Notes under the pieces: generated by a model | The model's input: the letters and a program-made list of their open reading frames with translations, nothing else | The model's database searches: none | Told to the model about the DNA's origin: nothing | Assembly (NCBI GenBank): GCA_026398735.1 | Contig: JAPLSH010000016.1 | Span: 1 to 64,000 of the forward strand | Length of the DNA stretch: 64,000 bases | Direction: 5' to 3' | DNA from: Pseudomonadota bacterium | GTDB taxonomy: Bacteria > Pseudomonadota > Gammaproteobacteria > Steroidobacterales > Steroidobacteraceae | Made by a program: the position numbers and the translations under genes | Shown here: positions 3,612-20,524 of the stretch, one piece after another | Position numbering within the stretch: position 1 is the stretch's first letter | Layout: the number at the start of each line of letters is the position of its first letter

Positions 3612-4651
3612 GTCGCCTGAAACTGTTGGCCTGTCTGGCCGGTGCGCTAGTGCTGGCCGCGTGTGCACGTACCACGACGCCAGGCGTGACCGAGCTGGTG
3701 TATGCCACGCCGTACAGCCCCAATCATCCGTTCAGTCGTGCAGACAAGGAATGGATGAGCTTTGTGGAGCAGCGCAGCGGCGGCAGCTTGCGTATCCGTC
3801 CCAGTTGGTCCGGCGCGCTGCTGTCTGCGGACCATTCTATGGTTGAGCTACGCCATGGCGTGGCGGACATCGGGCTGATTACTCCCATCTATGTGAAGGG
3901 CGGGGTGCATCTGATCCGCACACAGTCGGGTTTTTACAGCGGCGCAGACACTGTGCCCAAACAGCTGGCGTTATATCGCTGCATGGAAGAGGCCAGTTCG
4001 CAATACGCGCAGGAACTGCAGGGACTGCATGTGCTGGCAGTGCAGGGTGGTGTATTGCCGGGCGTCATAACCCGCACCAAGCCTATCGCGACCTTGGAGG
4101 ACCTGCGCGGCCTGCGACTACGCGCGCCGACAGAGTTGCTTAGCGTGCTACAAAACCTCGGCGCTGATCCCGTCAGCATGCCGATGGGTGAGGTGTATTC
4201 AGCCTTGGCCAAAGGTGTAATCGACGGCGTTGTTGCACCAGTTGATACCTTCAAATCTATGCACTTTGCTGAAGTGGCCAGCTACTACACGGCACTGGCT
4301 GTGCCGCGTGGTGCTTATCCTGCCAGAGCTATGAGCCAGATACGCTGGGAGTCGCTGACGGTCGCACAACGTGCAGTACTTGATGAGGCCGTCGCGGTCT
4401 GGGAGACGGCGCTCGCACGCCAAGCACAGCGCGGTCAGGAAGATGGCTTCAAGGCGGCGCAGGAGGGCCGTGTTGTGATGGCTCCCATCGACGCGTCAGA
4501 GCAGCAGCGCTTTGATCAGCTGTATTTGCGCGATGCAAGGCGCAACGCCGAAGGCTTGCAGCGCTTTGGCATTAATGGTCTTGCCGTCTTTGAAGTCGCG
4601 CGTGCCAGTCTGCGTGCAGATGGCACTGTCACTTGCCCAGGCAGGAGCTGA
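3608..4651 (+). CDS. TRAP transporter substrate-binding lipoprotein, DctP family
   Basis: A 347-residue extracytoplasmic solute receptor. The N-terminus is a lipoprotein signal (MSRLKLLACLAGALVLAACA) with lipobox LAAC, so the mature protein should be lipid-anchored rather than free in the periplasm. The body has the DctP marks: an early ADxG segment (GVADIGLITPIY), the helix EDLRGLRLRAP with its conserved Arg that binds the ligand carboxylate, and the MPMGEVYSALAKGVIDG motif. No DctQ or DctM membrane subunits lie in the window, so it must pair with subunits elsewhere or upstream. Its place between a dehydratase subunit and a CoA-transferase, with ATGA overlap upstream, suggests that it captures the organic acid this operon metabolises. 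The start was chosen for that overlap and for the signal peptide. Confidence 0.85.
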   Translation: MSRLKLLACLAGALVLAACARTTTPGVTELVYATPYSPNHPFSRADKEWMSFVEQRSGGSLRIRPSWSGALLSADHSMVELRHGVADIGLITPIYVKGGVHLIRTQSGFYSGADTVPKQLALYRCMEEASSQYAQELQGLHVLAVQGGVLPGVITRTKPIATLEDLRGLRLRAPTELLSVLQNLGADPVSMPMGEVYSALAKGVIDGVVAPVDTFKSMHFAEVASYYTALAVPRGAYPARAMSQIRWESLTVAQRAVLDEAVAVWETALARQAQRGQEDGFKAAQEGRVVMAPIDASEQQRFDQLYLRDARRNAEGLQRFGINGLAVFEVARASLRADGTVTCPGRS

Positions 4652-4652
4652 C

Positions 4653-5822
4653 ATGGCTCAGCCTCTTGCCGGTATTGTGGTTGCTGACTTTACCCATGTG
4701 ATGGCAGGCCCTTATGCAACGCACCTGTTGCGTCTGCTTGGGGCAGAGGTCATCAAGATTGAGGCGCCTGGTCGTGGCGACCTGATGCGCAATTACGGCA
4801 CTGATCGTCGATACGACGGAATGGCGCCGGCTTTCATTGCTGTCAACGCCGGGAAGCAATCGATAGCACTGGATCTTAAGAACGCTGCGGACCTCGAGAC
4901 CGCGCAACGCATTGTGGCGCATGCCGATGTACTGGTAGAAAACTTCCGGCCAGGCGTTATGCAGCGGCTTGGCTTGGGGTACGAGTCGGCATTGGCAGCT
5001 AATCCGCGGCTGGTGTATTGCTCCGTGTCGGGCTACGGGCAATCCGGGCCGCTGCGAGACTGGCCCGCCATCGATAACATCGTGCAGGCCACCAGCGGCA
5101 TGATGAGCTTGGGCGGTGGTCCTGATGACCCTCCCAGCCGTGTTGGTTTTCCGGTAGTGGATACGCTGACTGGGCATACCGCTGCGTTTGCCATTTTGGC
5201 CGCGCTGCTGCGCCGACACACCACTGGCAAGGGTGAATACATCGACGTGGCTATGCTTGATGCCTCTATCGCATTTATGGCCTCTGCCGTCGTCCCCTAT
5301 ACCGTGACCGGTAAAGCGCTGGCGCGAACCGGTAACACTGGTTACAGCGGACAGCCGACCTCGGCACTGTTTCGCGCAGGCGATGGCCGGCAGATTTCGC
5401 TGGGCGTCGTTCAGCAACATCAATTCGAGACGCTTGCCCAAGTGCTGGGTCAGCCCCAGTGGCTTGCCGATGCGCGCTACGCCTCGCCAGACCTGCGTCG
5501 AACCCACACAGCAGAGATACAAGCGGAGCTGTCGGCAGTGCTTGCCTTGCGCACCGCTGCTGAGTGGGAGGCACTGATGAGTGCTGCGGGTATTCCCTGT
5601 GGCATGGTGCGTGAGGTGGGCGAGGCCGTCGACATGCCGCATCTGGCCGAGCGCGGCCTGCGCCTGCCGTTGCAGATACCGGGTTTGCCCGAGGGGCGCA
5701 CATCGGTTTCGGTGGTTAATGCCGGCTTCTGCATGGGCAGTGACGGCCCTGGAGTGGATGTGCCGCCGCCTCGCTTAGATGAGCACGGCGCGCAGGTGCG
5801 TGCCTGGTTGAACGACTGCTAA
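4653..5822 (+). CDS. CoA-transferase family III (CaiB/BaiF)
   Basis: A single-domain 389-residue CaiB/BaiF enzyme. Family signatures in order are LAGIVVADFTHVMAGP, LLGAEVIKIEAPG, the NAGKQSIALDLK stretch, ADVLVENFRPGVMQRLGLGY, CSVSGYGQSGPL, and DVAMLDASIAFM, whose Asp near residue 203 is the expected nucleophile that forms the aspartyl-CoA anhydride. ATG 4653 follows AGGAG (4643-4647) at good spacing and begins one base after the DctP stop, so it is the last gene of the operon. Together with the tandem homologue at 184 it gives the operon two transferases. One may activate the imported acid and the other recycle CoA from the product, or it may act as a racemase, which the same fold also supports. 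Confidence 0.9.
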   Translation: MAQPLAGIVVADFTHVMAGPYATHLLRLLGAEVIKIEAPGRGDLMRNYGTDRRYDGMAPAFIAVNAGKQSIALDLKNAADLETAQRIVAHADVLVENFRPGVMQRLGLGYESALAANPRLVYCSVSGYGQSGPLRDWPAIDNIVQATSGMMSLGGGPDDPPSRVGFPVVDTLTGHTAAFAILAALLRRHTTGKGEYIDVAMLDASIAFMASAVVPYTVTGKALARTGNTGYSGQPTSALFRAGDGRQISLGVVQQHQFETLAQVLGQPQWLADARYASPDLRRTHTAEIQAELSAVLALRTAAEWEALMSAAGIPCGMVREVGEAVDMPHLAERGLRLPLQIPGLPEGRTSVSVVNAGFCMGSDGPGVDVPPPRLDEHGAQVRAWLNDC

Positions 5823-5853
5823 ACCCGCGGCTGCCCGGTATGGCTCAGGGTTT
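5821..5853. terminator. Weak inverted repeat between convergent operons
   Basis: AAACCC at 5821-5826 pairs with GGGTTT at 5848-5853 across a GC-rich 21-base interval, placed exactly where the + strand CoA-transferase operon meets the - strand cytochrome/flavoprotein pair. The ends of both genes reach into it. There is no long T run, so intrinsic termination would be weak in either direction. This is a suggestion from position and symmetry only. Confidence 0.3.
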
Positions 5854-6183
5854 GCCCTTCGACAGATAACCGGCAACGGCGGCCAGCTGCGCATCGCTGG
5901 CATCGGCGCGGGTGATGGGCATCATGTTGAGTATGCCCACGCGCGCTGCTCGCACCACATAGGCTGCAGTCAGGTCGCTGCGCTTTTCCAGCTCTGCTAC
6001 GGCGGGGTCCACACGACGGGCCAGCAGACCGGTGCCCATTCCGCTGGCGTTGTGGCACATCGCACACTTTTCGGTGAACAGCGCTTTGCCATCGAGCGCG
6101 GCCGGTTGCTGCGCAAGCGCAGCAGTGGCCAATAGGGGCACTACGCCCATCACCAAAGATTTGATCAGCGTCTGACGGTTCAT
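5845..6183 (-). CDS. Cytochrome c subunit of a cresol-methylhydroxylase-type flavocytochrome
   Basis: A 112-residue periplasmic c-type cytochrome. Residues 1-24 form a Sec signal peptide (hydrophobic core LVMGVVPLLATAALA, AxA-type cleavage), followed by the haem site CAMCH near residue 40 and a likely Met axial ligand in ILNMMPITR. It directly follows the flavoprotein gene with an ATGA overlap (6180-6183). This matches pchF/pchC-type pairs, in which a small cytochrome takes electrons one at a time from the FAD subunit and passes them to the respiratory chain. It could serve any VAO/PCMH-type flavoprotein, so the substrate depends on the partner. Confidence 0.85.
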   Translation of the reverse strand: MNRQTLIKSLVMGVVPLLATAALAQQPAALDGKALFTEKCAMCHNASGMGTGLLARRVDPAVAELEKRSDLTAAYVVRAARVGILNMMPITRADASDAQLAAVAGYLSKGKP

Positions 6184-7742
6184 GTTCGTACCTTCACGTT
6201 CGACCGACCGGGCCAGATACCGCTCTTGCCGGGAGCGAGTATTCCCGCAGGATCAAGCGCATCTTTAATGCGCTCGCTGAGGCGCCGCAGCGCATGGTTA
6301 TTAAAGTCATTTCCATCGGCTACCAGGTCCATGTAGTCGATGTGCGCACGATATTCGCCATAGCCATGCTCACGCGCATCGGCAATGAGGGTGCGCAGGA
6401 ACGGATCCACGCGCTTCATGAAGGCCGGATCGTCCAGGTTCAGCAGCACCGCATTCACGTTGAGCAGGTGCCGTTCGCCAAACGCGAAGCTGGCCTGATA
6501 GTCCATGCCGTATTCTTTGTAGCGGGCATAGGTGCGTTTGAATTGCTCCATCGCCAGCTTGCCCGACTGCGTCAGCACAGGCGAGAAGCCGATGTGACCA
6601 CCGCGGCCGCCGAACCAATTGGCGCTTTGCATGGGGAAAGTCAGCGGTACGCCCATCCAGCCGCCGGCTGTGGGTGTAATAACATCGCCGGGTTTCCAGC
6701 TGAAGGGCTTGAGCGCCATCGGCTTGATGGCCTTGAGCTCCTTCTCGAGGATGTCCATGTTCGCCTGCACGACCGACTCGCGGCCATACACGCGCACGCT
6801 GACGCCCCACCAGCCCAGATCAAAGCGCTTGCGTATCGCAGCCACCACGTCATCGGACAGTGAGCCGGGCTGATCGGTCCATTGACTGCGTGTGGTCAGA
6901 ATGTTGGCAGCGCGAAACCAGTTGCCGATGGTCGGGGACTGTTGCAGCACGCCTTCGCGTCGCAGCGGGCCCAGCGTATCGATCAGCGGACCCAAGTCCT
7001 CCATCTTGTCCATTTCGACATCGAAGCCGCGCACTACCTCGGGCTGTGGCATCAGCCAGATGTTGGCTTTGGTCACGATGCCGTAGTTGGACTGCACGAA
7101 CAGTTGGTCAAAAGCAGGGCCATAGCCGTACTTGTGCAGGCCCCAGCTGGGCGCGCCGGTCATTGCGCCCATGCCGGTGCGGACCAGGTCGCCATCGGGC
7201 AGCACCACTTCCATGCCGCAGATGTTGCGCGTGTGCTCGCCGTAGGGGGTGTAGCCCAGGCCGCGGTCCAGTGCATTGCCGATCACCGAGCCCCAGCTGT
7301 TGCCGGGTACCGACAGCCACAGTGGAATCTTGTGGGTCTGCAGGTAGTCGTAGAGGTCGTAAAAACCCACGCCCGGCTCCAGCAGCACTGTGCCGTTCTC
7401 GACATCCATCTCGATCTTCTTCATGCGCGAGAGGTCGATGATGATCGAGCCGGCACGCACCGGCGCCGAGGTGCCATAACCCAGGTTCTTGCCGCGGCTT
7501 ACCGTCCAGATGGGCACTTTGTTGGCGGCGGCCACGCGCACCAGCGCCTGCACCTGCTCGGTGGTCGTGGGGGCTACCGCAGCGGCGGGCCGGTGGTTGC
7601 GCGGGTCGATGGGAAAGCGGTCGCTGTAACTGTCGCGGTCTTCCTCGGTGTTGAAGACAGCGTCTGCCCCGACGATGCCGGCAAAGGCTTTGAGCGTGCG
7701 CGCCAGGGTTGCGGCATCGGGCGGGGGAGTGCGTGAATCCAA
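6180..7742 (-). CDS. FAD-dependent 4-alkylphenol dehydrogenase (4-cresol dehydrogenase / vanillyl-alcohol oxidase family)
   Basis: A 520-residue VAO-family flavoprotein. The PCMH-type FAD domain covers about residues 50-250: RPAAAVAPTTTEQVQALV, RGKNLGYGTSAPVRAGSIII, LEPGVGFYDLYDYL, and the GYTPYGEHTRNICGMEVVLP segment. The C-terminal substrate domain has YGEYRAHIDYMD, which matches the active-site Tyr-Arg pair of vanillyl-alcohol oxidase and PCMH that stabilises the phenolate. A His in RGGHIGFSP is a candidate covalent FAD anchor, but I could not align it. Known members oxidise the para side chain of phenols (4-cresol, 4-ethylphenol, eugenol, vanillyl alcohol) through a quinone methide. The cytochrome partner argues for a dehydrogenase rather than an oxidase. 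The start is TTG at 7742 with AGGA about 9 bases upstream and a good promoter at 7791-7819; no ATG fits as well. Confidence 0.85.
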   Translation of the reverse strand: MDSRTPPPDAATLARTLKAFAGIVGADAVFNTEEDRDSYSDRFPIDPRNHRPAAAVAPTTTEQVQALVRVAAANKVPIWTVSRGKNLGYGTSAPVRAGSIIIDLSRMKKIEMDVENGTVLLEPGVGFYDLYDYLQTHKIPLWLSVPGNSWGSVIGNALDRGLGYTPYGEHTRNICGMEVVLPDGDLVRTGMGAMTGAPSWGLHKYGYGPAFDQLFVQSNYGIVTKANIWLMPQPEVVRGFDVEMDKMEDLGPLIDTLGPLRREGVLQQSPTIGNWFRAANILTTRSQWTDQPGSLSDDVVAAIRKRFDLGWWGVSVRVYGRESVVQANMDILEKELKAIKPMALKPFSWKPGDVITPTAGGWMGVPLTFPMQSANWFGGRGGHIGFSPVLTQSGKLAMEQFKRTYARYKEYGMDYQASFAFGERHLLNVNAVLLNLDDPAFMKRVDPFLRTLIADAREHGYGEYRAHIDYMDLVADGNDFNNHALRRLSERIKDALDPAGILAPGKSGIWPGRSNVKVRT

Positions 7743-7790
7743 GTGGGTATTCCTAGGTGGCGGGCCCCGGTGAGGCCGGCGGTATTCGAC

Positions 7791-7819
7791 AGCCTAGGAG
7801 GGGCGAGTTGATGTGTCAA
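7791..7819 (-). promoter_or_regulatory. Sigma70-type promoter for the flavocytochrome genes
   Basis: On the - strand a perfect -35 TTGACA (7814-7819) lies 17 bases from TAGGCT (7791-7796), a moderate -10. Transcription would begin near 7784, giving a leader of about 42 bases before the TTG start at 7742. It sits in the 202-base gap between the divergent flavocytochrome and kinase-carboxylase operons, so a shared regulator site may also lie here. No equally clear promoter was found for the + strand unit. Confidence 0.5.
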
Positions 7820-7944
7820 ATCCGGTAAATCGGGGTGTTTTTTCGCTTGCCAAGACGGCCTGCGAAGTGATGCGGCGGTGTCGTACACTCGGAACCAACA
7901 TCGGCAACACAGGCAGCACCCATAAGCTGCCAGCGGGGGTTTTG

Positions 7945-9765
7945 ATGAGTGCACAGGACAAGGCCAAGGGCTTTCCGTTACCCAGTTCCGTGAAGGTGGT
8001 GCCGGGCACCGAGGCAGCACAGGCTGCCTACCCGTATCACATTCAGTTCGCACCCGAGGACGACCAGAAGTTCTGGTTCTATAACTCGATGCATTTCCCC
8101 GAGCCCATGCATGCCTTTGACATGGTGACGGCTGAGGCGGCTTATTGCGCGCTGGGCGCAGCCAACACGCGTGTGCACTGCTTGCCCACCACGCTAGGTA
8201 TTGACCATCGCATCATCAACGGCCGTGTGTACATCGGTGGCAATGGCGTTACCGATCCGGCCGAGATTGAGCGGCGCACTGTAGAGTTTCAGAAGCGCGC
8301 GTTTTACTACTACGAGAACTGGGAGACCCTCTACGCACAGTGGAAGGTCAAGATGCTCAAGCTGATCGACGATGCGCGCGCACTGCCGTCGCCGACGCTG
8401 CCGGAATTTGAGCCCCTGGAGCACGTGCACGCCGGTCGGGGCGTGGCCTCCAATCATGATTTGCTAGTCACCTACCAGAAGACCATCGAGGGTTACTTCC
8501 GGATGTGGCACCACCACTTCGAGTTCCTGCTGCTGGGCTATGGCGCCTATCTGGTGTTCTTCGGCTTCTGCAAAAAAGCCTTCCCAGAGATTACCGATCA
8601 GACCATCGCGCGCATGGTGGCGGGCATTGAGGCCGAAATTTTCCGTCCCGACGAAGAGCTGCGTGGCTTGGCACGTCGCGCCGTTGAGCTCAATGTGGAT
8701 CATCATTTTAAAGAAGGCGTGTCGGCCGATGCCGTACTGGCCTCGCTCAGTGAAGGCGGTCCGGCCGGCAAGCAGTGGTTGGACTCGCTGGCTAAGGCGC
8801 GTGACCCGTGGTTCAACATTAATGTGGGCGACGGGTTCTATCATTACCACCGCGGCTGGAACGACGATCTGTCGATGCCCTTTGCGGCGCTGCCCGATTA
8901 CATGCAGCAAGTGCGCGATGGCAAGTCGCTACATCGTGATATCGGCAAGCTGCAAGAAGAGCGCGTGCAGCTCATCGCAGACTATCGCGAGTTGCTCAAC
9001 AGCGATGAAGAGCGTGCAGCCTATGACCAGATGATCGGGCTGGCGCATCGCGTGTTCCCCTACGTTGAGGGTCACAAGTTCTATTGCGAGCACTGGTACA
9101 CCAACCTGTTCTTCAACAAGATCCGCGAGTACGGCGCGCTGTTGTCCAAGGCCGGTTTCTTCCCGGAAGAAGCCGACGTGTTCAACCTGACGCACTATGA
9201 ACTCGAGAGCGCGATCATCGACTTGATGAACGCGTGGTCCAGCGGCAGTCCGCCCCGCGGGCCGTCTTATTGGCCGCCGATTGTCGCGCAGCGTAAAGCC
9301 GCTGTTGCCGAATGGGCCAAGCATGATTCGCCGCCGGCACTGGGTCCCATCCCCGATGTCATTGATGATCCGGCGATCGTCATGTTGTGGGGAATCACCC
9401 GCGAGAGCCTTGATAACTGGCTCACTTCCGGCGATGAAAAGAACAGCCATGAGGTGCGCGGTTTTGCGGCATCCATGGGTGTGGTCGAGGGTACGGCACG
9501 CATCGTTAAGTCAGTGGACGAGATCTCGCGTCTGCAGCGTGGCGATATCTTGGTATGCCAGGTCACTAACCCCACGTGGGCGCCGATCTTCCAGCGCATC
9601 AGTGCAGCGGTATCGGATATCGGCGGATCGATGAGCCATGCGGCCATCGTGGCGCGCGAATACGGCCTGCCGGCGGTGGTGGGCACGGGTAACGCCACCT
9701 CCAAGATCAAAGATGGTCAGCGTATCCGGGTCGATGGCGGCCGTGGCGTCGTGACCTTGCTGTGA
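7945..9765 (+). CDS. PEP-synthase-like phosphotransfer subunit, phenylphosphate synthase PpsA type
   Basis: A 606-residue protein. It ends with a PEP-utilising swivelling domain whose phospho-carrier His, near residue 565, is in GGSMSHAAIVAREYGLPAVV. The preceding 450 residues are unlike the PEP/pyruvate-binding barrel of normal PEP synthase and carry many aromatic and His residues (WHHHFEF, FYHYHRGWNDD). In Thauera aromatica phenylphosphate synthase, subunit PpsA (about 70 kDa) supplies the His and PpsB (about 40 kDa) the ATP-binding domain. Size, domain order and gene order match here. ATG 7945 is chosen over the upstream GTG at 7813 because it follows a GGGGG stretch (7934-7938) and the upstream residues look noncoding. 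The proposed role is transfer of the beta-phosphoryl group from a phospho-His to a phenol or enol oxygen. No PpsC-like regulatory subunit is seen. Confidence 0.7.
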   Translation: MSAQDKAKGFPLPSSVKVVPGTEAAQAAYPYHIQFAPEDDQKFWFYNSMHFPEPMHAFDMVTAEAAYCALGAANTRVHCLPTTLGIDHRIINGRVYIGGNGVTDPAEIERRTVEFQKRAFYYYENWETLYAQWKVKMLKLIDDARALPSPTLPEFEPLEHVHAGRGVASNHDLLVTYQKTIEGYFRMWHHHFEFLLLGYGAYLVFFGFCKKAFPEITDQTIARMVAGIEAEIFRPDEELRGLARRAVELNVDHHFKEGVSADAVLASLSEGGPAGKQWLDSLAKARDPWFNINVGDGFYHYHRGWNDDLSMPFAALPDYMQQVRDGKSLHRDIGKLQEERVQLIADYRELLNSDEERAAYDQMIGLAHRVFPYVEGHKFYCEHWYTNLFFNKIREYGALLSKAGFFPEEADVFNLTHYELESAIIDLMNAWSSGSPPRGPSYWPPIVAQRKAAVAEWAKHDSPPALGPIPDVIDDPAIVMLWGITRESLDNWLTSGDEKNSHEVRGFAASMGVVEGTARIVKSVDEISRLQRGDILVCQVTNPTWAPIFQRISAAVSDIGGSMSHAAIVAREYGLPAVVGTGNATSKIKDGQRIRVDGGRGVVTLL

Positions 9766-10829
9766 CGGTTGTGACGATGACTGCCAATGAGTCGATCAGT
9801 TGGTTCGCTGACATAGGCCTTGAGGACCGCCCGCGCGTGGGCGGCAAGGGCGGTAGCCTGGGCGAACTCACGCGCGCCGGCATTGAGGTGCCGCCGGGCT
9901 TTGTGGTGTGCACTGCGGCGTTTGATCGCTTCATCGATGCGCTGGAGCAGCGTGCACCGGTGCGTTCGCGCATCGAGGTGCTCGACTCGCAGGACCTTGA
10001 TGCGATCGGTGTGGTGTCGCGAGAGTTGCGCGCTCGCATTGAAGCCGAATCGATGCCCGATGAGTTGCAACGCGAGATCCTGCAGGCGCATGCGCGTTTG
10101 GCAGTCGCGGGCGTTGCACCCATTGTCGCGGTGCGATCGTCTGCAACCACCGAAGATGCGGCTGATGCCAGCTTTGCAGGCTTACAAGACACGTTCCTGT
10201 GGGTGATGCAGCCCGAAGACGTGCTGGCTCGCATCCGCAGTTGCTGGGCCAGCCTGTATTCGGTCGAGTCGGTCAGCTACCGCCGTAAGCAGAACTTCCC
10301 TGAAGCCGGTGTGGCCATGGCGGTTGTGGTGCAGGTGATGGTCGACGCGCGCACTGCCGGTGTGATGTTTACGCGCAGCCCGACCACCGGCGATAAGTCA
10401 GTCATTACCATCGAAGGTGCCTGGGGCTTGGGCTCGGCGGTGGTGGGTGGCGAAGTCACGCCTGATCGCTGGGTGGTGGGCAAGATCACCGGCGAGATTC
10501 CGGTACGGGATATTTCTGACAAGGCGATTCGCCATGCGCCCGCGCCCGGTGGTGGCATTGTCGATGTTGAAGTAGAGCCCGATCAGCGCACGGCGGCATG
10601 TTTGTCAGACGACGAACTGCTGGCGTTGCGCGCTGTGGGTCGTAAAGTGGAGCGGCACTATGGTCGCGCGCAAGACATCGAGTGGGCCATCGATCGCCAT
10701 AGCGGCCGCGTAATGCTGCTGCAAAGCCGTCCTGAGACGGTGTGGTCCAACAAAGACACTGCGCCAGTGGTCACGCCTAAGGCCGATCCGCGTATGCATG
10801 TCATGTCGATATTTGGGGGAATTAAGTGA
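9762..10829 (+). CDS. PEP-synthase-like ATP-binding subunit, phenylphosphate synthase PpsB type
   Basis: A 355-residue stand-alone PEP/pyruvate-kinase N-terminal domain (ATP-grasp). It shows VGGKGGSLGELTRAGIEVPPGF at the start, VAVRSSATTEDAADASFAGLQDTFL near residue 125-150, the Mn/ATP region AWGLGSAVVGGEVTPDRWVV, and QDIEWAIDRHSGRVMLLQSRPET at the end, where full-length PEP synthases continue into the swivelling domain. It should bind ATP and phosphorylate the His of the protein encoded just upstream, releasing AMP and phosphate. The two genes overlap (GTG 9762 within the upstream stop; ATG 9777 is the alternative). Splitting these domains in the order carrier then ATP-binding is the hallmark of phenylphosphate synthase rather than of a broken ppsA. 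Confidence 0.75.
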   Translation: MTVVTMTANESISWFADIGLEDRPRVGGKGGSLGELTRAGIEVPPGFVVCTAAFDRFIDALEQRAPVRSRIEVLDSQDLDAIGVVSRELRARIEAESMPDELQREILQAHARLAVAGVAPIVAVRSSATTEDAADASFAGLQDTFLWVMQPEDVLARIRSCWASLYSVESVSYRRKQNFPEAGVAMAVVVQVMVDARTAGVMFTRSPTTGDKSVITIEGAWGLGSAVVGGEVTPDRWVVGKITGEIPVRDISDKAIRHAPAPGGGIVDVEVEPDQRTAACLSDDELLALRAVGRKVERHYGRAQDIEWAIDRHSGRVMLLQSRPETVWSNKDTAPVVTPKADPRMHVMSIFGGIK

Positions 10830-11302
10830 GCCTGACCGCAGCAGACATCCAGGAAATCATGCGGCTCATTGAGGCCTCGGACTTTGACGAACTGATTTTG
10901 GAAACCGCCGGCACCAAGCTGGTGTTGCGCCGTGGTGCGGCAGTAGCTGCAGCGCCTGTGGCGGTTGCGGCGCCGGTAGTGGCACCGATGGCTGCGCCTG
11001 TGCAGCCTGCAGCGGCTGTGGCAGCCTCCGCGCCGGTTGAGTCACACAGCAGTGCCGACGGCACAGCAGTTGAATCACCCATGCTGGGCACGTTTTATCG
11101 GGCGCCAAAGCCGGGCGCGCCGGCGTTTGTCGAAGTGGGCACCGCCGTTGAGGCCGACACTGTCATTGGCATCGTCGAAGTGATGAAGTTGATGAACACC
11201 GTACGTGCCGGGGTGCGCGGCACGGTCACTGCGTTGGTCGCACGCGATGGCGCGCTGGTTGAATACGGCGAGACGTTGATCCGCGTGGCTGTGGCGGAGT
11301 AA
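10826..11302 (+). CDS. Biotin carboxyl carrier protein (AccB-like)
   Basis: A 158-residue BCCP. After a helical N-terminal AccB-like section (DIQEIMRLIEASDFDELILE) comes an Ala/Pro-rich linker (residues about 38-70), then the biotinyl domain with ESPMLGTFYRAPKPGAPAFVEVG and the biotin site VEVMKLMNTV. Lys121 would be biotinylated, although the usual AMKM is VMKL. It starts at GTG 10826 overlapping the kinase subunit stop, with GGGGGA at 10814-10819. It could serve acetyl-CoA carboxylase. Its place between a kinase pair and an OadA-type carboxyltransferase, rather than beside accA/accD, argues for a dedicated carrier of a catabolic carboxylase. Expect BirA-dependent modification and shuttling between the next two gene products. 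Confidence 0.9.
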   Translation: MSLTAADIQEIMRLIEASDFDELILETAGTKLVLRRGAAVAAAPVAVAAPVVAPMAAPVQPAAAVAASAPVESHSSADGTAVESPMLGTFYRAPKPGAPAFVEVGTAVEADTVIGIVEVMKLMNTVRAGVRGTVTALVARDGALVEYGETLIRVAVAE

Positions 11303-11308
11303 ATAGAC

Positions 11309-12655
11309 TTGGCCATCCGCAGGGTCTTTGTCGCCAACCGTGGCGAGATTGCGGCTCGCATCATCCGTACCTGTGGTGAGCTGGGCATTGAAACCGTGCT
11401 TGCAGTCTCTGCTGCCGATCGCGACAGCGTCCCTGCGCGGCTGGCGGACCGTGCTGTGTGCGTGGGTCCTGCACGTTCCACTGACAGCTACCTTCAGATC
11501 AACACGCTGGTGCATGCCGCATTGGCCACCGGCTGCGATGCAGTCCATCCGGGTTATGGATTTTTGTCGGAGCGCGCGCCGTTTGCCCGCGCCTGTGAGC
11601 AGGCCGGACTGGTGTTCATCGGCCCCACGCCCGAGCAGATTGACGCCGTTGGCGACAAGCTGCGGGCGCGCAGCGAGGCTGTGGCAGCTGATGTGCCGGT
11701 AGTGCCCGGTGCTACGGCCGACACCGTACAAGATGCCGTCGATGCAGCAGCACGCATTGGTACGCCGCTGTTAGTTAAGGCAGTGGGTGGCGGTGGCGGA
11801 CGCGGCATGAAGCGGGTCGATGTGTTGGCAGATGTGGCGCAGGCTGTAGAGCTGGCCAGTGCCGAGGCCGCTGCTGCATTTGGTGATGCGCGCGTGTATC
11901 TGGAGCGCTATGTGTCGCGGGGTCGGCATGTGGAGTTGCAGGTGCTGGGTGATGGTCGCGGCGGCGTTATTCATTTGGGTGAGCGCGACTGCTCTGTGCA
12001 GCGCCGCTACCAGAAGCTCATTGAAGAAACCCCCGCAGTGGGTTTGTCGCCGCAGTTGCTGGCTCAGTTGCGCGAGGCGGGAGTGCGCTTTGCACAGCGG
12101 CTGAACTATCGCGGCGCGGGCACTGTGGAGTTTCTGGTCGATATCGAACGCGACTGCTTCTATTTTTTGGAGATGAACTCGCGCATCCAGGTGGAGCACC
12201 CGGTGACCGAAGCGGTGACGGGTGTGGATCTGGTGGCAGAGCAGATTGCCATCGCTGAAGGGCAGGGCCTGCGGTTGCGCCAACAGGATGTGCTGTTCAA
12301 TGGGCACGCCATCGAGTGCCGCATCAACGCTGAAGATCCGCTGCGCGATTTCGCGCCCAGTCCGGGTCGCGTGCGTCGGGCCCAATGGCCAGAAGGTGTT
12401 GGACTGCGTGTCGATACGCATATCCAGGACGGGTCAATGGTGCCGCCGTTCTATGACTCGCTGATGGGCAAGATCATCGCTCACGGTGTCGATCGCGCAG
12501 CGGCTGTCGCTCAGCTGCAGCAGGCACTGGCGGACACCCAGATCGACGGTGTGGCCACCAACATCCGCTTTCACCAGCGTGTGTTGGCCGATGCAGAGTT
12601 TCAGGCCGGTGGTATCGATACAGGATATGTAGGACGGCTGGGTCCGCTGACTTAA
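11309..12655 (+). CDS. Biotin carboxylase (AccC-like)
   Basis: A 448-residue biotin carboxylase with the full domain set. The N-terminal biotin carboxylase fold opens with VFVANRGEIAARIIRTC. The ATP-grasp part has the glycine loop VKAVGGGGGRGMKRV and the catalytic RIQVEHPVTEAVTG segment with EMNSR. The C-terminal domain is AIECRINAEDP...FAPSPGRV. It charges biotin on the carrier with bicarbonate and ATP. The best start is TTG 11309; the protein begins MAIRRVFVANRGE as usual for AccC. It is a free-standing enzyme like AccC or PycA, not fused to the carrier. Genes on both sides are the carrier and the carboxyltransferase, so the three form one complex or functional set. Confidence 0.93.
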   Translation: MAIRRVFVANRGEIAARIIRTCGELGIETVLAVSAADRDSVPARLADRAVCVGPARSTDSYLQINTLVHAALATGCDAVHPGYGFLSERAPFARACEQAGLVFIGPTPEQIDAVGDKLRARSEAVAADVPVVPGATADTVQDAVDAAARIGTPLLVKAVGGGGGRGMKRVDVLADVAQAVELASAEAAAAFGDARVYLERYVSRGRHVELQVLGDGRGGVIHLGERDCSVQRRYQKLIEETPAVGLSPQLLAQLREAGVRFAQRLNYRGAGTVEFLVDIERDCFYFLEMNSRIQVEHPVTEAVTGVDLVAEQIAIAEGQGLRLRQQDVLFNGHAIECRINAEDPLRDFAPSPGRVRRAQWPEGVGLRVDTHIQDGSMVPPFYDSLMGKIIAHGVDRAAAVAQLQQALADTQIDGVATNIRFHQRVLADAEFQAGGIDTGYVGRLGPLT

Positions 12656-12679
12656 GTCGCACTTCAAGGAAGACAACAC

Positions 12680-14149
12680 ATGGCAGACGTGCAACTGGTC
12701 GAGACTTCACTGCGCGATGGCAACCAGAGCCTATGGGGTGCGCTGGGCGTCACTACCGCCAACACGCTGGCTATCGCGCCGCTGATGGATCGTGTGGGTT
12801 TCAAAGCCATCGACTTCACCACCTCGACGCACATGGGCGTGGCGGTGCGCTACAAGAAAGAAGATCCGTGGGAGCGACTGCGCTTGATGGCGGCAGCTAC
12901 GCCCAATACACCGCTGCAGTTCATGTCGACCGGCTTTCGCTTTATCAGCTGGGAAACCGCCAGCCCAGAGTTCATGTCGCTGGCTTTTGCCACGCTGGTG
13001 CGCAACGGCATCCGGCGGTTTTGTCTGGCCGATCCCATGAACGATGCGCAGGCCAATGCAACCTGCGCACGGATGGCCAAGCAGGTCGGCGGTGAGTATG
13101 TAATCGCTGCATTGGTGTTTACGCTCAGCCCGTTTCATGACGATGCGCACTATGTCGATTGCGCGCGCACGCTGGCGGCTTGCCCGGATGTGGATGCGCT
13201 GTACATCAAAGATCCGGGTGGTCTGCTCACGCCGTCGCGTGCTGCCACGCTGATACCTGCGGTTATGGCAGTGATCGGTAACAAGCCGCTCGAGCTGCAC
13301 GCCCACGGAACCATTGGTCTTGCCGACATGGTCTATGCCGATGCGCCTGCATTAGGTGTAAGTGCACTGCAAGTGGCGTCTGGTGCTGCGTCGGAGGGCA
13401 CCTCTAACCCTTCATCGGCGCGTGCGGTTTCCAACCTCAAGGCACTGGGGCACACGGTACTGGTCGACGAGGAAGCGCTGGCACAGGTGCAGGCCTACTT
13501 CACCAAGCTGGCTGCTGCCGAAGGTTTGGCCGTGGGCAAGCCGATGGCCTTTGATGCAGCCTATCTGCATCACCAGTTGCCCGGCGGCATGGTGGGTACC
13601 ATGCGCCGTCAATTGACTGAAGCGCGCCTGCCACACCTTGAAGCTGCGGTCATCGAAGAGATGGGCCGTGTGCGTCAGGAGCTGGGCTGGCCGATCGTGA
13701 TGACGCCGTTTGCGCAGATGCTGCAAACCCAAGCCTTTATCAACGTGACCGGCAAAGAGCGCTACGCCACAGTGCCCGATGAAATCATCCGCTATGCGCT
13801 GGGTCGCTTTGGTCGTCCCAATGTGCCGATTGATGCGCAGGTGATGAACCGCATTGAAGCGCTGCCGCGCACGCGTGAGCTGCGGGCCGAGCCGGATATG
13901 GCGCCGTTGTCTGAACTGCGCGCGCGTTTTGGCAAGGGCATTAGCGACGAAGAGTTCTTGTTGCGCGCCACCATGCCGGGCAACCTGGTCGATGCGATGC
14001 TGGCGGCAGGGCCTGCAGTGCGCCACTACAACCCAGACAGTCGCCCACTGCTGGACTTGGTCCGTCAGCTGACGGCGCGCCGCGACATCAACCATGTCGC
14101 GATAGAAAAGGGCGACATCAAGCTTGAACTGCGCCGCTGGGCGCGCTGA
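12680..14149 (+). CDS. Biotin-dependent carboxyltransferase, OadA/PycB type
   Basis: A 489-residue TIM-barrel carboxyltransferase of the HMGL/OadA/PycB group. The first strand has ETSLRDGNQSLWG (metal-binding Asp and substrate Arg/Gln). Further on are VDALYIKDPGGLLTP (KDPGG with the Lys that is carbamylated in OadA), PLELHAHGTIGLADMVY (metal His pair), and the conserved C-terminal part with YLHHQLPGGMVGTMRRQL. The biotinyl domain found at the end of OadA is missing; the carrier is separate. Known relatives carboxylate pyruvate or decarboxylate oxaloacetate. The neighbouring kinase pair suggests another enol-type acceptor, such as a phenol or aryl ketone. AAGGAAG before ATG 12680 is a strong ribosome site. 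Pyruvate carboxylase remains a simple alternative. Confidence 0.85.
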   Translation: MADVQLVETSLRDGNQSLWGALGVTTANTLAIAPLMDRVGFKAIDFTTSTHMGVAVRYKKEDPWERLRLMAAATPNTPLQFMSTGFRFISWETASPEFMSLAFATLVRNGIRRFCLADPMNDAQANATCARMAKQVGGEYVIAALVFTLSPFHDDAHYVDCARTLAACPDVDALYIKDPGGLLTPSRAATLIPAVMAVIGNKPLELHAHGTIGLADMVYADAPALGVSALQVASGAASEGTSNPSSARAVSNLKALGHTVLVDEEALAQVQAYFTKLAAAEGLAVGKPMAFDAAYLHHQLPGGMVGTMRRQLTEARLPHLEAAVIEEMGRVRQELGWPIVMTPFAQMLQTQAFINVTGKERYATVPDEIIRYALGRFGRPNVPIDAQVMNRIEALPRTRELRAEPDMAPLSELRARFGKGISDEEFLLRATMPGNLVDAMLAAGPAVRHYNPDSRPLLDLVRQLTARRDINHVAIEKGDIKLELRRWAR

Positions 14150-14162
14150 ACACGAGACACTC

Positions 14163-15026
14163 ATGGCACGTCGACCGATCACCACTGCGCCGCTGCGCAC
14201 CCTGTCGCGCATCCGCGGCTTCATGTTTGATCTGGACGGCACGCTGCTGCTCAGCGATCGGTCTCTGGGCGGCTACGAAGTGTTGCCCGGTGCTATTGAA
14301 ATGCTCACCACGTTAGCCAAGCGCCAAGTGCCCTATGTGGTGCTGACCAACGGCAGTGCTTATCCACCCGCTGAGCAGGCGGCCAAGTTGCGCAAACTGG
14401 GGTTGCCGGTAACCGATGCGCAGATGCTCACGCCGTCCAGCGTCACGGCAGAGGTGATGCGTCGCAATGGCGTACAGCGCGCACTGGTGCTGGGTAGCCC
14501 GGGTGTGGGGCATGCGCTGCGCGAGGCAGGTATTGCCACCTGCACCTATGCGGATGCAGATCCAAGCGCAGTACAGGCGGTGTATGTGGGCTGGCACCCG
14601 GACTGCAACATGAAAGACATTGAGGCCGCGTGCAACGCCATCTGGAATGGCGCCAAGCTTTACACCGCCTCGGATGTGCCGTTCTTTGCCACTAAGCAGG
14701 GCCGCTCGATGGGCTATTCCTACGCCATTATCGGCGCTATCCGCCGTATGACCCGCGCACCGGTCATCCTCACCGGTAAGCCGTCGTTGCATGCACTGCG
14801 TTTTGTGGCCGCCAAGCTGGGTGTGCCCCGCACCGCAGTGGGCGTGGTGGGCGACGATCCATTGGTCGAGATGCAAATGGCGGTGCGCGGTGGTGCGGTG
14901 GGCATGGGTGTGACCACTGGCGTAACCGATGTGGCTGCTTGGGCTGCTCAGCCTGTAAAACAGCGCCCGGATTGGGTGCTTACATCGTTGAACGATCTTC
15001 AACAGGTTCCGCTGTTAAGCGACTAG
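14163..15026 (+). CDS. HAD-IIA family phosphatase (NagD-like)
   Basis: A 287-residue HAD superfamily hydrolase. Motif I is FDLDGTLLLSD (nucleophile Asp and acid Asp), motif II is VVLTNGS, the subclass IIA cap follows, motif III is the Lys in VILTGKPSLHAL, and motif IV is GVVGDDPLVEMQMAVRGG. Size and cap type fit NagD, pyridoxal or nitrophenyl phosphatases. It follows the carboxyltransferase by 13 bases, so it is likely the last gene of the kinase-carboxylase operon. Known phenylphosphate carboxylase carries a HAD-family delta subunit, so a phosphatase here supports chemistry on a phosphorylated intermediate. It could equally be a general housekeeping phosphatase. Its end overlaps the convergent Rieske gene by 47 bases. 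Confidence 0.85.
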   Translation: MARRPITTAPLRTLSRIRGFMFDLDGTLLLSDRSLGGYEVLPGAIEMLTTLAKRQVPYVVLTNGSAYPPAEQAAKLRKLGLPVTDAQMLTPSSVTAEVMRRNGVQRALVLGSPGVGHALREAGIATCTYADADPSAVQAVYVGWHPDCNMKDIEAACNAIWNGAKLYTASDVPFFATKQGRSMGYSYAIIGAIRRMTRAPVILTGKPSLHALRFVAAKLGVPRTAVGVVGDDPLVEMQMAVRGGAVGMGVTTGVTDVAAWAAQPVKQRPDWVLTSLNDLQQVPLLSD

Positions 15027-16059
15027 TCGAGCCGCACAGCTGATCGATGATGCGCCGCGCCCGTGTGGGGCCGGCGTCGATGTTCAGATACACCTGACTG
15101 CGACTCGGGAAGCGCTGCTGGTTTTGCCACTGCGCTTCGATGATCACTTTGTCTTCTAGAAACGTGGCCGCTGTCTGGCTGACCACCAGGTCGGTGATGT
15201 TCTGCTTGTCTGGATGCGGATTGGTGGCCACCGTCCAAAAGTAATGCGCGGTGTGCAGCGTCTCGGGTGTGACGCCATGAAAGCCGCGCATGTGAAAGCC
15301 ATGGCGCCCCGGGTCATCAAGGCTTTGGGTGCCCACATCCATGCCGCCGGTCCAGATCTCGCAATGCGAGATCTTGAAGTCGATCTCTTGCCATCGATCT
15401 ACGTTGGCCTTGAAGGGCCATGCAGCGGTGTAGGTGGGTGGTGGCACCGAGTCGGGCAGCCAGCGCACGACGCGCACGCTGCGCTCATCGGCACTAACCT
15501 GAACCTGTGCATTCATATGCACCGCCGCATTGCCGCCAATAGTCTTCACGTGCACATAGCCCAAGTGGCTTAAGTCGAGCAGGTTGTCGTGGATCAGGTG
15601 CCATGGCGCGTCGTAATGAAAGCTGTCGCCGCCATAGCTGTAGGCGGGGTCGTCATGAAACGCATACGCAGGCGGCTCTATATCCGGCTGCACGCCCTCA
15701 GCGCCGATCCAGATCCACAGGATGTGATTGCGCTCGCGCAGGTCAAAGGCGCGCACCCGAGCGCGACCGGGGATGCGGGCTTGGCCCGGTGCCTCGATGC
15801 ACTGGCCCCCGTGATTAAACAGCAGGCCGTGATAGCCACAGCGCAGGCCGTGCTGTTCCAGTGTGCCCAGCGACAGTGGCAGCTCCTTGTGGCAGCAGCG
15901 GTCTTCCAGCGCCGATACGGCGCCATCGCTGGTGCGAAACAACACCAGCCGGTGACCCAGCAAGGTACGCGCCAGCGGCTTGTCGGTCAGTTCCCAGTCA
16001 AAGCCTGCGACCCACCAGCGGTTGGCCGGAAAGTCGGTGATGGCGTCGGTATCGCTCAT
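14980..16059 (-). CDS. Rieske non-haem iron oxygenase, VanA-like
   Basis: A 359-residue oxygenase component. The Rieske domain has EDRCCHKELPLSLG (CxH) and LRCGYHGLLFN (CxxH) within residues 50-80. The catalytic domain has the mononuclear iron motif NLLDLSHLGYVH (H-x4-H) and a C-terminal FLEDKVIIEAQWQ typical of the VanA_C group, whose members O-demethylate vanillate and similar methoxy- or phenoxy-acids. No VanB-type reductase is adjacent, so electrons must come from elsewhere. ATG 16059 is used; the longer reading from a TTG at 16101 adds residues unlike the family. It points towards the kinase-carboxylase operon and shares its aromatic theme, but a functional link is only inferred. Confidence 0.88.
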   Translation of the reverse strand: MSDTDAITDFPANRWWVAGFDWELTDKPLARTLLGHRLVLFRTSDGAVSALEDRCCHKELPLSLGTLEQHGLRCGYHGLLFNHGGQCIEAPGQARIPGRARVRAFDLRERNHILWIWIGAEGVQPDIEPPAYAFHDDPAYSYGGDSFHYDAPWHLIHDNLLDLSHLGYVHVKTIGGNAAVHMNAQVQVSADERSVRVVRWLPDSVPPPTYTAAWPFKANVDRWQEIDFKISHCEIWTGGMDVGTQSLDDPGRHGFHMRGFHGVTPETLHTAHYFWTVATNPHPDKQNITDLVVSQTAATFLEDKVIIEAQWQNQQRFPSRSQVYLNIDAGPTRARRIIDQLCGSTSRLTAEPVEDRSTM

Positions 16060-16164
16060 GTTGCAGGCCCTGCCTTGTTCTCCCGGGACCAAGCCTAGCA
16101 CTGGGCGTTGTCAGTTCTTGCCCGGCTGGCCCACAATGGCGTCTCAAATTCTGGAGGAACCCTC

Positions 16165-18265: not shown

Positions 18266-20524
18266 TTAGTCGACCGTCAGCGCCACCAGTTCGCCCGCCG
18301 CGCCGCGAGCGCCGACAGCAACCACGACGAACTGCCGGCCATTGACCGCATAGGTCATCGGTATGCCCGACTGATTGGCGGGCAGCACGAACTCGTGCAG
18401 CACTTCACCAGTGGCCTTGTCGTGTGCGCGTAGCTTGTTGCCGCCACCGCCGGCGCGCCACAGACCGCTGCCTTCACCCGAGAACAGCAACGACTTGGTG
18501 ACCAGCAGCCCCACTTGGTCAAATGAACCCGTGCGTTCCAGCTTGATGCCCGCCAACGCCGGGTTGTCACGCGCCCAAGCGGGTGTGTCGGCGTTGGGCA
18601 CCATCCACTTGTGCAGGCCGCTGTTGAGGTCGATGGCGGTGATACGACCCCACGGTGGCTTGACCAAGGGCAGGCCCGCAGGTCCGCCCAGAGAGCCTCC
18701 AGGGAAGCCTTCGCCATAGGTGCCGATCCAGTCCATGTTCGAGACGCTCTTGTCCTGTTTGAGGCCTATGGGCCCCACAGTGGAGATGGAGCTGACATAG
18801 AACAGGCCGGTCTCTGGATCGAGCGCGCCGCCGGCCCAGTTGGCACCCCCCGACAGGTTCGGGCGGATCAACGTGCCCAGATTCTTGCCGGGCACCACCA
18901 CGCTGGGCGGGAGGAAGGCCGGACCATAGCGATATTGGCTGATGATCTGCTGTGCCTGCGCCTTGAGCTCTGGAGTGAAGTCGATCAGATCTTCAACGCG
19001 TAAGCCCTGCGGCTCAAACGGTGCGGGCTTACTGGGGATGGGCTGGGTGGGTGAGCTGCGTTCGCCCGGCACATCAGACTTGGGAAAAGGTGTTTCTTTG
19101 ATCGGCCACACCGGCTTGCCGGTGACGCGATCAAACACATAGGCATAGCCGGTCTTGGTGACCTGCACCACAGCAGGGATGCGCTTGCCGTCGACAGTGA
19201 TATCGGCCAGCACCGGCGCGGCCGGCAGGTCGTAGTCCCAGATATCGTGATGGATGATCTGGTAGTGCCACACACGCTTGCCGGTGGCCGCTTCAACGCA
19301 CACCAGCGCATCGGCAAACAGGTTGTCGCCCGGCCGGTGGCCACCATAGAAATCACCGGTAGCACCTTCGATGGGCAAATAAACCAAGCCACGCTCGGCA
19401 TCGGCACTGAAGGTGCTCCATAGGCCGGTGTTGCCGGTATAGGCCTCGCTGCCTTCCAGCCACGTCTCGCTGCCGGGCTCGCCCTTTTGCGGCACCGTGC
19501 GGAAGGTCCACTTCAGCGCGCCAGTGCGCACGTCATAGCCACGTACATAGCCGGGCACGGCTTCTTTGGTCTTGGGTCCGCCGCCGGCAGCAAAGGCCAC
19601 GCCGACCACCAAGGTGTCGCCCACCACCACCGGCGGTGAACTGGAGCCTGGCTGTGCCATACCCGGATCGTTGACGCGTGGCAGATCGGTCTTAAGGTCG
19701 ATGACCCCTGCAGTGCCAAAGCTGTTGATAGGCAGGCCCGAACGCGCATCCAGTGCGATCAGCTGAAAGCCCGGGCTGATGGTGTAGACGCGACTGGCTT
19801 CGCCTGCATTGCGAGAGCGCCAATAGGCCACGCCACGGCCCGAGCTGCGACGCGGTGCCGCAGCGCCACGCGCGCCTTCATCGAGGCGATACATCCACAA
19901 CGTCTCGCCGGTGGTGGCATCCAGTGCGACCACAGTGCGACGCACACCTGCGGTGGTGTACAGCACGCCATCGGCCATCAGCGGTGTGACGCGGTAATAG
20001 AACTCTGGTGTGGGGCCGTAGTTGTCGGACTTCCAACGCCAAGCCACTTTAAGTTTGTTGACGTTGCTCGCGTTGATCTGGTTCAGCGGTGAATAGCTGC
20101 TGCTGCCGGCATCGGCGCGGTTGTGTAGCCACTCGGTGTAGGTGGGTACTTGCTGCGAGGCAGTGGCAGCAACCTGCCAGCCGTTAGCCGAGCGGATGCG
20201 CGCCACTGCAGAGGTATAGTCGGCCGCGCCCAAACCACCCGGGTTGGTGGGCGGCATGCTGCCGCGCGTGTAGGCCTCGAGCACGGTAGCGGGCACGCTG
20301 GCCCACTTCTGTTGGAAGGCCGCGCCAATCAGCGCGGGGCCGGTTTCGCCGCCGCGCAGCTCTGCGCCATGGCAGGCCGCGCAGGTGCGCGAGTAGGCGT
20401 CATCGACGGGTGCTGCAGGTTGTGCTGCCGGCTGTGCTGCCAGAGCAGTGCCTGCTGCAGTGATCAGCAGTGCTGCCAGAGCTGCCTGTAGGCGGCGCCG
20501 TACCGAGCGAGTGGATGCGTACAT
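18266..20524 (-). CDS. PQQ-dependent dehydrogenase with N-terminal cytochrome c domain
   Basis: A 752-residue quinohaemoprotein. After a signal peptide (about residues 1-29, core LAALLITAAGTALA) comes a cytochrome c domain with CAACHGAELRGG near 45 and a Met ligand in TRGSMPPT. An eight-bladed PQQ beta-propeller follows from about residue 130: WLHNRADAGSSSYSPLNQIN opens it, tryptophan-docking repeats such as ALDATTGETLW and VEAATGKRVWHYQ occur, and the end is GRQFVVVAVGARG. The haem domain is N-terminal, unlike type II alcohol dehydrogenases where it is C-terminal, and the propeller sequence is closest to the membrane glucose dehydrogenase-like group. Expected role: periplasmic oxidation of an alcohol or sugar, feeding electrons to cytochrome c. 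The substrate is unknown. Confidence 0.88.
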   Translation of the reverse strand: MYASTRSVRRRLQAALAALLITAAGTALAAQPAAQPAAPVDDAYSRTCAACHGAELRGGETGPALIGAAFQQKWASVPATVLEAYTRGSMPPTNPGGLGAADYTSAVARIRSANGWQVAATASQQVPTYTEWLHNRADAGSSSYSPLNQINASNVNKLKVAWRWKSDNYGPTPEFYYRVTPLMADGVLYTTAGVRRTVVALDATTGETLWMYRLDEGARGAAAPRRSSGRGVAYWRSRNAGEASRVYTISPGFQLIALDARSGLPINSFGTAGVIDLKTDLPRVNDPGMAQPGSSSPPVVVGDTLVVGVAFAAGGGPKTKEAVPGYVRGYDVRTGALKWTFRTVPQKGEPGSETWLEGSEAYTGNTGLWSTFSADAERGLVYLPIEGATGDFYGGHRPGDNLFADALVCVEAATGKRVWHYQIIHHDIWDYDLPAAPVLADITVDGKRIPAVVQVTKTGYAYVFDRVTGKPVWPIKETPFPKSDVPGERSSPTQPIPSKPAPFEPQGLRVEDLIDFTPELKAQAQQIISQYRYGPAFLPPSVVVPGKNLGTLIRPNLSGGANWAGGALDPETGLFYVSSISTVGPIGLKQDKSVSNMDWIGTYGEGFPGGSLGGPAGLPLVKPPWGRITAIDLNSGLHKWMVPNADTPAWARDNPALAGIKLERTGSFDQVGLLVTKSLLFSGEGSGLWRAGGGGNKLRAHDKATGEVLHEFVLPANQSGIPMTYAVNGRQFVVVAVGARGAAGELVALTVD

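Follow-up and report, generated by a model that had tools for sequence, protein, structure and literature searches.

The Hpe pathway of Rhodococcus rhodochrous GD02, encoded by hpeHICBAD, was described by Dexter et al. in 2022 (PMC9618137, PNAS). According to that account HpeHI phosphorylates acetovanillone and 4-hydroxyacetophenone in vitro, the biotin-dependent HpeCBA carboxylates the 4-phospho compounds but not the free ketones, and HpeD removes the phosphate; production of HpeCBA in E. coli did not succeed. The same paper states that acvABCDEF of Sphingobium SYK-6 shares both homology and synteny with hpeHICBAD, and that in Aromatoleum aromaticum EbN1 the xcc genes are clustered with hpeHI homologues; the HpeHI-type kinase was characterised by Dexter et al. 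in 2025 (PMC12167813, JBC). Here we analysed a six-gene operon in the first 64,000 bases (the window) of contig C14 of a 2.77 Mb genome from a little-known proteobacterium. Judged from its sequence, this would be a Hpe/Acv operon of the published type, degrading lignin-derived hydroxyacetophenone-type ketones, and we put the probability of this reading at roughly 90%. The open reading frame list and a Pfam scan place a split dikinase, a biotin carrier, a biotin carboxylase, an OadA-type carboxyltransferase and a HAD-IIA phosphatase on the plus strand between positions 7945 and 15026:

7945–9765, + strand: gene 1, HpeH/AcvA-like kinase alpha subunit, 606 residues, with a substrate part and a C-terminal swivel domain (PF00391; relatives at 54–100% identity)
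9762–10829, + strand: gene 2, HpeI/AcvB-like kinase beta subunit, 355 residues, ATP-grasp (PF01326 at 337 bits; 9GOJ at 257 bits)
10826–11302, + strand: gene 3, biotin carboxyl carrier protein (BCCP), 158 residues, third gene as are hpeC and acvC (PF00364, TIGR00531)
11309–12655, + strand: gene 4, biotin carboxylase, 448 residues, a function labelled HpeA in Table 1 of PMC9618137 (PF00289/PF02786/PF02785, NF006367)
12680–14149, + strand: gene 5, carboxyltransferase, 489 residues, a function labelled HpeB in the same table (HMGL-like and PYC_OADA)
14163–15026, + strand: gene 6, HpeD/AcvF-like HAD-IIA phosphatase, 287 residues from ATG (PF13344/PF13242, DLD motif)

These coordinates and domains confirm the six packed plus-strand genes given in a preliminary description of the stretch. 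The longest reading frame of gene 1 would start from a GTG codon (7813), but the alignment of orthologues favours the ATG at 7945. Genes 1 and 2 overlap by 4 bp (9762–9765), or are separated by 11 bases if gene 2 starts from the ATG at 9777, and genes 2 and 3 overlap by 4 bp (10826–10829). Gaps of 6 bases (11303–11308) and 24 bases (12656–12679) precede genes 4 and 5, and genes 5 and 6 either overlap by 26 bp (TTG start at 14124) or stand 13 bases apart (ATG start at 14163). Related loci in Pseudomonadota and Acidobacteriota, and a plasmid of Rhodococcus, show the same gene order, which argues that it is not due to chance.

In GD02, likewise, a two-component dikinase, BCCP, biotin carboxylase, carboxyltransferase and NagD-like phosphatase are encoded in a single operon (PMC9618137). 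The six functions match the published pathway one for one, and we assign the operon to the Hpe/Acv type. The two-subunit dikinase would move the beta phosphate of ATP via His565 onto the phenol of a 4-hydroxyphenyl methyl ketone, for which 4-hydroxyacetophenone, acetovanillone and acetosyringone are the candidates. The biotin carboxylase would carboxylate biotin on the carrier protein, and the acetyl group of the phosphorylated ketone would then receive this carboxyl through the carboxyltransferase. The HAD phosphatase would dephosphorylate the resulting phosphorylated aroylacetate. Two enzymes whose genes lie elsewhere in the genome, one resembling acetoacetate-CoA ligases and the other an amidohydrolase, probably release acetyl-CoA, with 4-hydroxybenzoate, vanillate or syringate as the presumed end products. 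The kinase, carboxylase and phosphatase steps have been demonstrated in print for homologues, and by analogy the window proteins are predicted to carry them out.

The preliminary description had proposed much of this mechanism, with a dikinase acting on a phenol, carboxylation of the phosphoester from carboxybiotin and a phosphatase acting afterwards. Homology to Hpe bears out these steps, and the chemistry read from the raw sequence was broadly right. Its claim of an undescribed hybrid route does not hold, the route having been in print since 2022 (PMC9618137) and the kinase having been characterised in 2025 (PMC12167813); the operon is a further copy of a published route, and its chemistry is already known. 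The xcc set, to which the preliminary description had pointed, is itself clustered with hpeHI homologues (PMC9618137).

The sole Pfam match in gene 1 is PF00391, at residues 531–601 of 606, and against solved chains, phosphoenolpyruvate (PEP) synthases included, its matches are confined to about residues 495–606. The phospho-carrier motif SDIGGSMSH ends in His565 (codon at 9637–9639), a position invariant in 20/20 aligned rows. This motif fits the published T/SXXGGXXXH rule, with Met at the position of the PEP synthase regulatory Thr and Ser preceding the His; a Ser before the phospho-His is stated for PpsA and CreH in the paper that also gives the rule (PMC12167813). The kinase alpha subunit has been likened in print to rifampin phosphotransferase, and our AlphaFold model of the window's was poor (mean predicted local distance difference test score, pLDDT, of 50). 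For the beta subunit the top match among 19 solved sequences was 9GOJ, the HpeI structure (PMC12167813), at 257 bits, followed by the next at 230 bits. Two Sphingobium kinases are 74–77% identical to the window kinase. The pair thus combines the T/SXXGGXXXH motif, free of the PEP-synthase substrate domain, with an HpeI-type ATP-grasp subunit, as do the Hpe/Acv kinases.

The family names in the operon (PF01326, PF00391, PYC_OADA and HMGL-like) could also describe an anaplerotic operon, in which the kinase pair would be an ordinary PEP synthase in two parts and the biotin set a pyruvate carboxylase or oxaloacetate decarboxylase divided among several subunits, and the genome holds no second PYC_OADA match that would fill the latter role. 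Against such an operon, neither gene 1 nor gene 2 matched the PEP-utiliser C-terminal (PEP/pyruvate) barrel in the Pfam scan, and the alpha subunit matches PEP synthases only over its last hundred or so residues (~495–606). Contig C17 already encodes a separate PEP synthase, a single 804-residue frame that matches both the ATP-grasp and the swivel domain.

The acceptor site of the carboxyltransferase bears on the same question. Gene 5 retains the active-site residues Asp13, Lys177, His207 and His209, which we take to be the metal ligands, together with Thr342. In alignments to Vibrio OadA and the Methylobacillus pyruvate carboxylase beta subunit the LLRGxN motif becomes MSTGFR, with Thr84 (12929–12931) at the pyruvate-binding Arg position and Arg87 at the Asn position. 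In the pyruvate carboxylase of L. lactis, as described, Arg606 contacts pyruvate or oxaloacetate and shifts to Asn609 when the site is empty; Thr867 participates in the transfer (PMC9581989). The likely counterparts, placed through the RGxN motif and not by aligning the L. lactis chain letter by letter, are Thr84 for Arg606 and Arg87 for Asn609, so that gene 5 has Thr84 and Arg87 where a pyruvate carboxylase or oxaloacetate decarboxylase has its arginine and asparagine (Arg606 and Asn609; RGxN in OadA). Among 78 related loci with a carboxyltransferase match (window excluded; at least 6 of the 78 are contigs counted twice), Thr84 and Asp13 are present in 78/78, Arg87, Lys177, His207 and His209 in 77/77 covered loci and Thr342 in 75/75 covered. 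This residue pattern also occurs in the Rhodococcus and Rhizobium clusters. An AlphaFold model of gene 5 (pLDDT 83) gave Z scores of 42.5 with two-subunit pyruvate carboxylase, 41.4 with OadA and 40.6 with transcarboxylase 5S. Because the catalytic residues and the fold are kept and Thr84 replaces the Arg, the carboxyltransferase seems to retain the enolate-carboxylating machinery and to have lost the anchor for the carboxylate of pyruvate. We rejected the combination of PEP synthase and pyruvate carboxylase on the missing barrel, the PEP synthase on C17 and Thr84, which is constant across the loci, and regard it as very improbable.

A different alternative follows from the homology of the kinase to the PpsA/PpsB type. 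Phenylphosphate synthase, PpsAB(C), is a split dikinase homologous to that of the window, whose alpha subunit is 43.6% identical to that of Azoarcus sp. KH32C, where its gene adjoins those for phenylphosphate carboxylase; an operon of this kind would phosphorylate a phenol and carboxylate the ring. The Azoarcus cluster has a UbiD-type carboxylase and a CBS-domain protein and stands without the biotin set, whereas the Pfam scan detected neither protein among the 14 window proteins, the operon's six included (the UbiD search was not extended to the rest of the genome). In addition, OadA-type carboxyltransferases act on the carbon next to a carbonyl. We rejected phenylphosphate carboxylation on these two grounds and give it a very small probability. 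By analogy with the Hpe/Acv systems, to which we assign the operon, carboxylation would fall on the acetyl group adjoining the ketone, not on the ring.

As the Hpe/Acv pathway requires, a three-component biotin-dependent carboxylase is encoded together with the kinase. Gene 3 scores above the cut-offs of PF00364 (Pfam) and TIGR00531 (NCBIfam) and has its biotin site at Lys121 (codon 11186–11188) in the motif EVMKLMN. A second BCCP gene in the genome, on contig C19, scores better in the profile search. Gene 4 contains the three biotin carboxylase domains PF00289, PF02786 and PF02785 and is above the cut-off of NCBIfam NF006367/PRK08591. Gene 6 has the HAD-IIA type domains of the NagD-like phosphatase found in Hpe/Acv operons, with a DLD motif from 14229 and the TTG at 14124 as an alternative start; TIGR01460 falls under its cut-off (87.8 vs 100.15 bits).

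Likely enzymes for the last two steps were found on other contigs. An HpeE-like acetoacetate-CoA-ligase-like gene on contig C10 encodes a protein 41–62% identical to four hpe-linked ligases and lies near an aromatic acid transporter gene and a lignostilbene-dioxygenase-like gene, and an HpeF-like amidohydrolase encoded on contig C13 is 52–72% identical to five hpe-linked amidohydrolases. The GD02 operon, which we compared through HpeI (9GOJ) alone, differs in including hpeE and hpeF. The Acv system of SYK-6, compared by description, has six genes and its last two steps encoded elsewhere, like the window; it uses VceA/VceB for them (PMC9618137), whereas the window genome has the HpeE- and HpeF-like genes, with no search made for VceA/VceB. 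The Xcc system of EbN1, also compared by description, has its biotin-dependent carboxylase clustered with hpeHI homologues (PMC9618137) and serves anaerobic degradation in a denitrifier; the genome of the window contains 5 matches to LigB and 4 to VanA_C, of which one VanA_C match lies next to the operon.

We next consider the distribution of the operon. A sample of 296 genomes from the window's order, its own included, gave alpha subunit matches in 262, most of those listed covering the ~95-residue swivel domain only. Among the matches listed, 15 genomes beyond the window's had a long alpha match (54–100% identity), one more had it in two pieces, and one distant relative stood at 31% (L033; 27% in the locus comparison). 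Of 17 order-level loci, 12 have the carboxyltransferase beside the kinase and in 4 the contig ends first; at the distant locus L033 no carboxylase was found near the kinase. Named genomes, many of them metagenome-assembled, yielded 191 relatives of the window kinase, and the best 80 of these (70–100% identical) were retained; they come from gammaproteobacteria (some Steroidobacteraceae), acidobacteria, Sphingomonadales and other alphaproteobacteria. Within these best 80 of 191, kinase and carboxyltransferase occur together in 48/49 loci with at least 8 kb downstream, so that close relatives do keep kinase and biotin set together, a co-occurrence the preliminary description had proposed as a check. 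In 25 of the 49 loci the order is HpeI, BCCP, biotin carboxylase, carboxyltransferase and HAD, and in 19 it is HpeI, BCCP, carboxyltransferase and HAD; 2 have the shorter order with a weak biotin carboxylase match (42–43%) several kb on, 1 is without a HAD match and 1 without biotin carboxylase and HAD matches. The 31 shorter loci keep the same orders as far as their contigs reach. A 2026 paper gives kinase and carboxylase genes as clustered in only 52/836 cases (PMC13101465), and since our sample is biased to the 80 closest of 191 relatives, 48/49 shows clustering as the rule within this clade only. None of the findings named beforehand as refuting the proposed route appeared: the PEP synthase on C17 is separate, the pyruvate-binding Arg is absent from the carboxyltransferase, and both gene groups stand together in close relatives.

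Among the 19 loci without a biotin carboxylase gene (L059, L060, L064, L068, L075, L079, L089, L093, L099–L101, L104, L105, L107–L111 and L113) the BCCP and carboxyltransferase genes are spaced by 3–197 bases, and L031 and L058 (the contig of L027) also have this form. Here, for example in Croceibacterium soli (L075), the BCCP of the operon may be loaded by the housekeeping AccC. In the neighbourhood of the 80 related loci, clusters of open reading frames with a LigB-type dioxygenase as representative were seen in at least 16 and with a LigM-type O-demethylase in at least 14, and CoA ligase and amidohydrolase neighbours in at least 8 each; the counts are minima, since many loci end early and one representative was annotated per cluster. 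Such a neighbourhood fits aerobic use of lignin-derived aryl ketones.

On plasmids, 285 records matched; in 10 the match covers 80% or more of the alpha subunit, and 7 of these 10 (H1–H7) were examined. All six genes, together with those for a ligase and an amidohydrolase, are present on plasmids of Rhizobium leguminosarum and of Rhodococcus sp. JS3073, and the Azoarcus KH32C plasmid has the kinase with phenylphosphate carboxylase genes. On two Rhodococcus plasmids the homologous split dikinase lies beside genes for a cytochrome P450, a short-chain dehydrogenase/reductase and an aldehyde dehydrogenase, without a carboxylase; we read this as a 4-cresol-type cluster, and the name CreHI for its kinase is our own assignment. 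HpeHI-type kinase pairs with no carboxyltransferase match nearby were found on plasmids of Thermomicrobium roseum (L115) and Haladaptatus salinisoli (L120), as well as at L033. Because some plasmid kinases stand without a carboxyltransferase or with other clusters, the kinase family is broader than the Hpe pathway, and the carboxylase link marks a subset of it. No match to the alpha subunit turned up among the viral contigs scanned.

A kinase tree built without the two longest rows places the window in a 9-row group with full support and in a 13-row group (99/97), all carboxylase-linked. In total 13/14 carboxylase-linked rows group together, and forcing all 14 together was not rejected (approximately unbiased test, p-AU 0.063). 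A tree with a distant outgroup gave a similar picture, poorly resolved.

Several observations weigh against assigning the operon to the Hpe/Acv type. The last two steps are absent from it, and the C10 and C13 genes are unlinked to it. The 9GOJ match is the one direct likeness to a characterised enzyme. About two fifths of the 49 loci are without a biotin carboxylase gene, and at one of the 49, L042, kinase and BCCP are present while a carboxyltransferase match is missing over 9 kb, which could be a real loss or an effect of assembly. In the trees, a carboxylase-linked Rhodococcus kinase is not part of the window's group and sits with long branches of other kinds. Finally, Table 1 for GD02 puts the carboxyltransferase before the biotin carboxylase (PMC9618137). 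The order is the opposite, with the biotin carboxylase leading, in the window, in the remaining loci that have both genes and on the JS3073 plasmid (L116:12543–15457), and either GD02 really differs or the printed labels were exchanged.

The operon is flanked by the following features:

5845–6183, − strand: c-type cytochrome, 112 residues, overlapping the flavoprotein gene by 4 bp (PF13442/PF00034; the same pair in L034)
6180–7742, − strand: VAO/PCMH-family 4-phenol oxidoreductase, 520 residues, the proposed feeder enzyme (8S7T and other 8S7 entries best, 452 bits)
7743–7944: divergent intergenic region of 202 bases, common to the operon and the flavoprotein gene
14980–16101, − strand: Rieske/VanA-type oxygenase, convergent with the phosphatase gene (PF19112; one of the 4 VanA_C matches in the genome)

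We found no sigma-70-like match between the divergent genes (7743–7944) and no terminator-like match in 14900–15200; one terminator-like match at 7821–7834 (+) scores close to chance level. On the downstream side the phosphatase and VanA-type Rieske genes overlap convergently by 47 bases (14980–15026), and the oxygenase may serve as an O-demethylase for a methoxylated product. Close to the operon, at 18266–20524 (−), lies a gene for a pyrroloquinoline quinone (PQQ)-dependent dehydrogenase with an N-terminal cytochrome domain; several hpe loci (e.g. L038, L045, L085 and L095) have matches to it at 25–34% identity, and it might oxidise a 1-arylethanol.

The 8S7 entries that best match the flavoprotein were deposited with a study of the vanillyl-alcohol dehydrogenase (VAD) of Marinicaulis flavus (PMC7617285), and from their residues 150–151 they appear to be that enzyme and not the second protein of the study. 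Marinicaulis flavus itself carries a Hpe-type operon (L073). Our flavoprotein retains the His of the histidyl link to flavin adenine dinucleotide and, in an alignment read with the table of PMC7617285, has Gly147/Asn148 where VAD has Asp150/Pro151, so that by sequence it fits neither the signature usual for oxidases nor that usual for dehydrogenases. The c-type cytochrome is its likely electron acceptor.

This arrangement raises the possibility that the ketone is made from 4-alkylphenols, the flavocytochrome oxidising 4-ethylphenol or 4-ethylguaiacol and the operon degrading the product, which would be compatible with a Hpe/Acv operon. The divergent pair with its 202-base gap is retained in the congener locus L034 (flavoprotein 95%, cytochrome 84% identical), and in EbN1 pchF, hped and acsA belong to one p-ethylphenol catabolic cluster (PMC4630880), with xcc clustered with hpeHI homologues (PMC9618137). 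Against it, the pairing was seen in 1/80 related loci, that of the congener alone, many of the loci ending early. The comparison with EbN1 presumes that the pchF/hped/acsA cluster and the xcc cluster are one and the same. A flavocytochrome acting as the source of ketone from a 4-alkylphenol would be a reasonable reading of these genes, and we hold it as a possibility at somewhat less than even odds.

Further upstream lie four plus-strand genes (178–5822). Two of them encode CoA_transf_3 proteins, one being 716 residues long with family matches over three segments, and the other two encode an HGD-D protein and a DctP solute-binding protein. The congener locus L034 conserves the whole set. HGD-D denotes the D-component of 2-hydroxyglutaryl-CoA dehydratase, which usually occurs with an activator; the genome has no match to the activator family BcrAD_BadFG, and the HGD-D protein stands without this usual partner.

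With this operon, a validated lignin-ketone pathway comes to include proteobacterial and acidobacterial genomes, most of them metagenome-assembled. Should assays confirm it, the Thr84/Arg87 signature would be a simple annotation marker to separate aryl-ketone from pyruvate carboxyltransferases. What is possibly new is the flavocytochrome link, along with operons that lack a biotin carboxylase gene; the spread within the clade is also of interest. More tentatively still than the ketone source alone, we suggest a joint picture. In it, the pathway would be joined via a divergent promoter to a histidyl-type VAD/PCMH flavocytochrome, allowing aerobic conversion of 4-ethylphenol or 4-ethylguaiacol to 4-hydroxybenzoate or vanillate by side-chain oxidation, phosphorylation and biotin-dependent carboxylation, with no need to hydroxylate the ring first. 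In addition, a substantial fraction of relatives, having no biotin carboxylase of their own, would borrow the housekeeping AccC.

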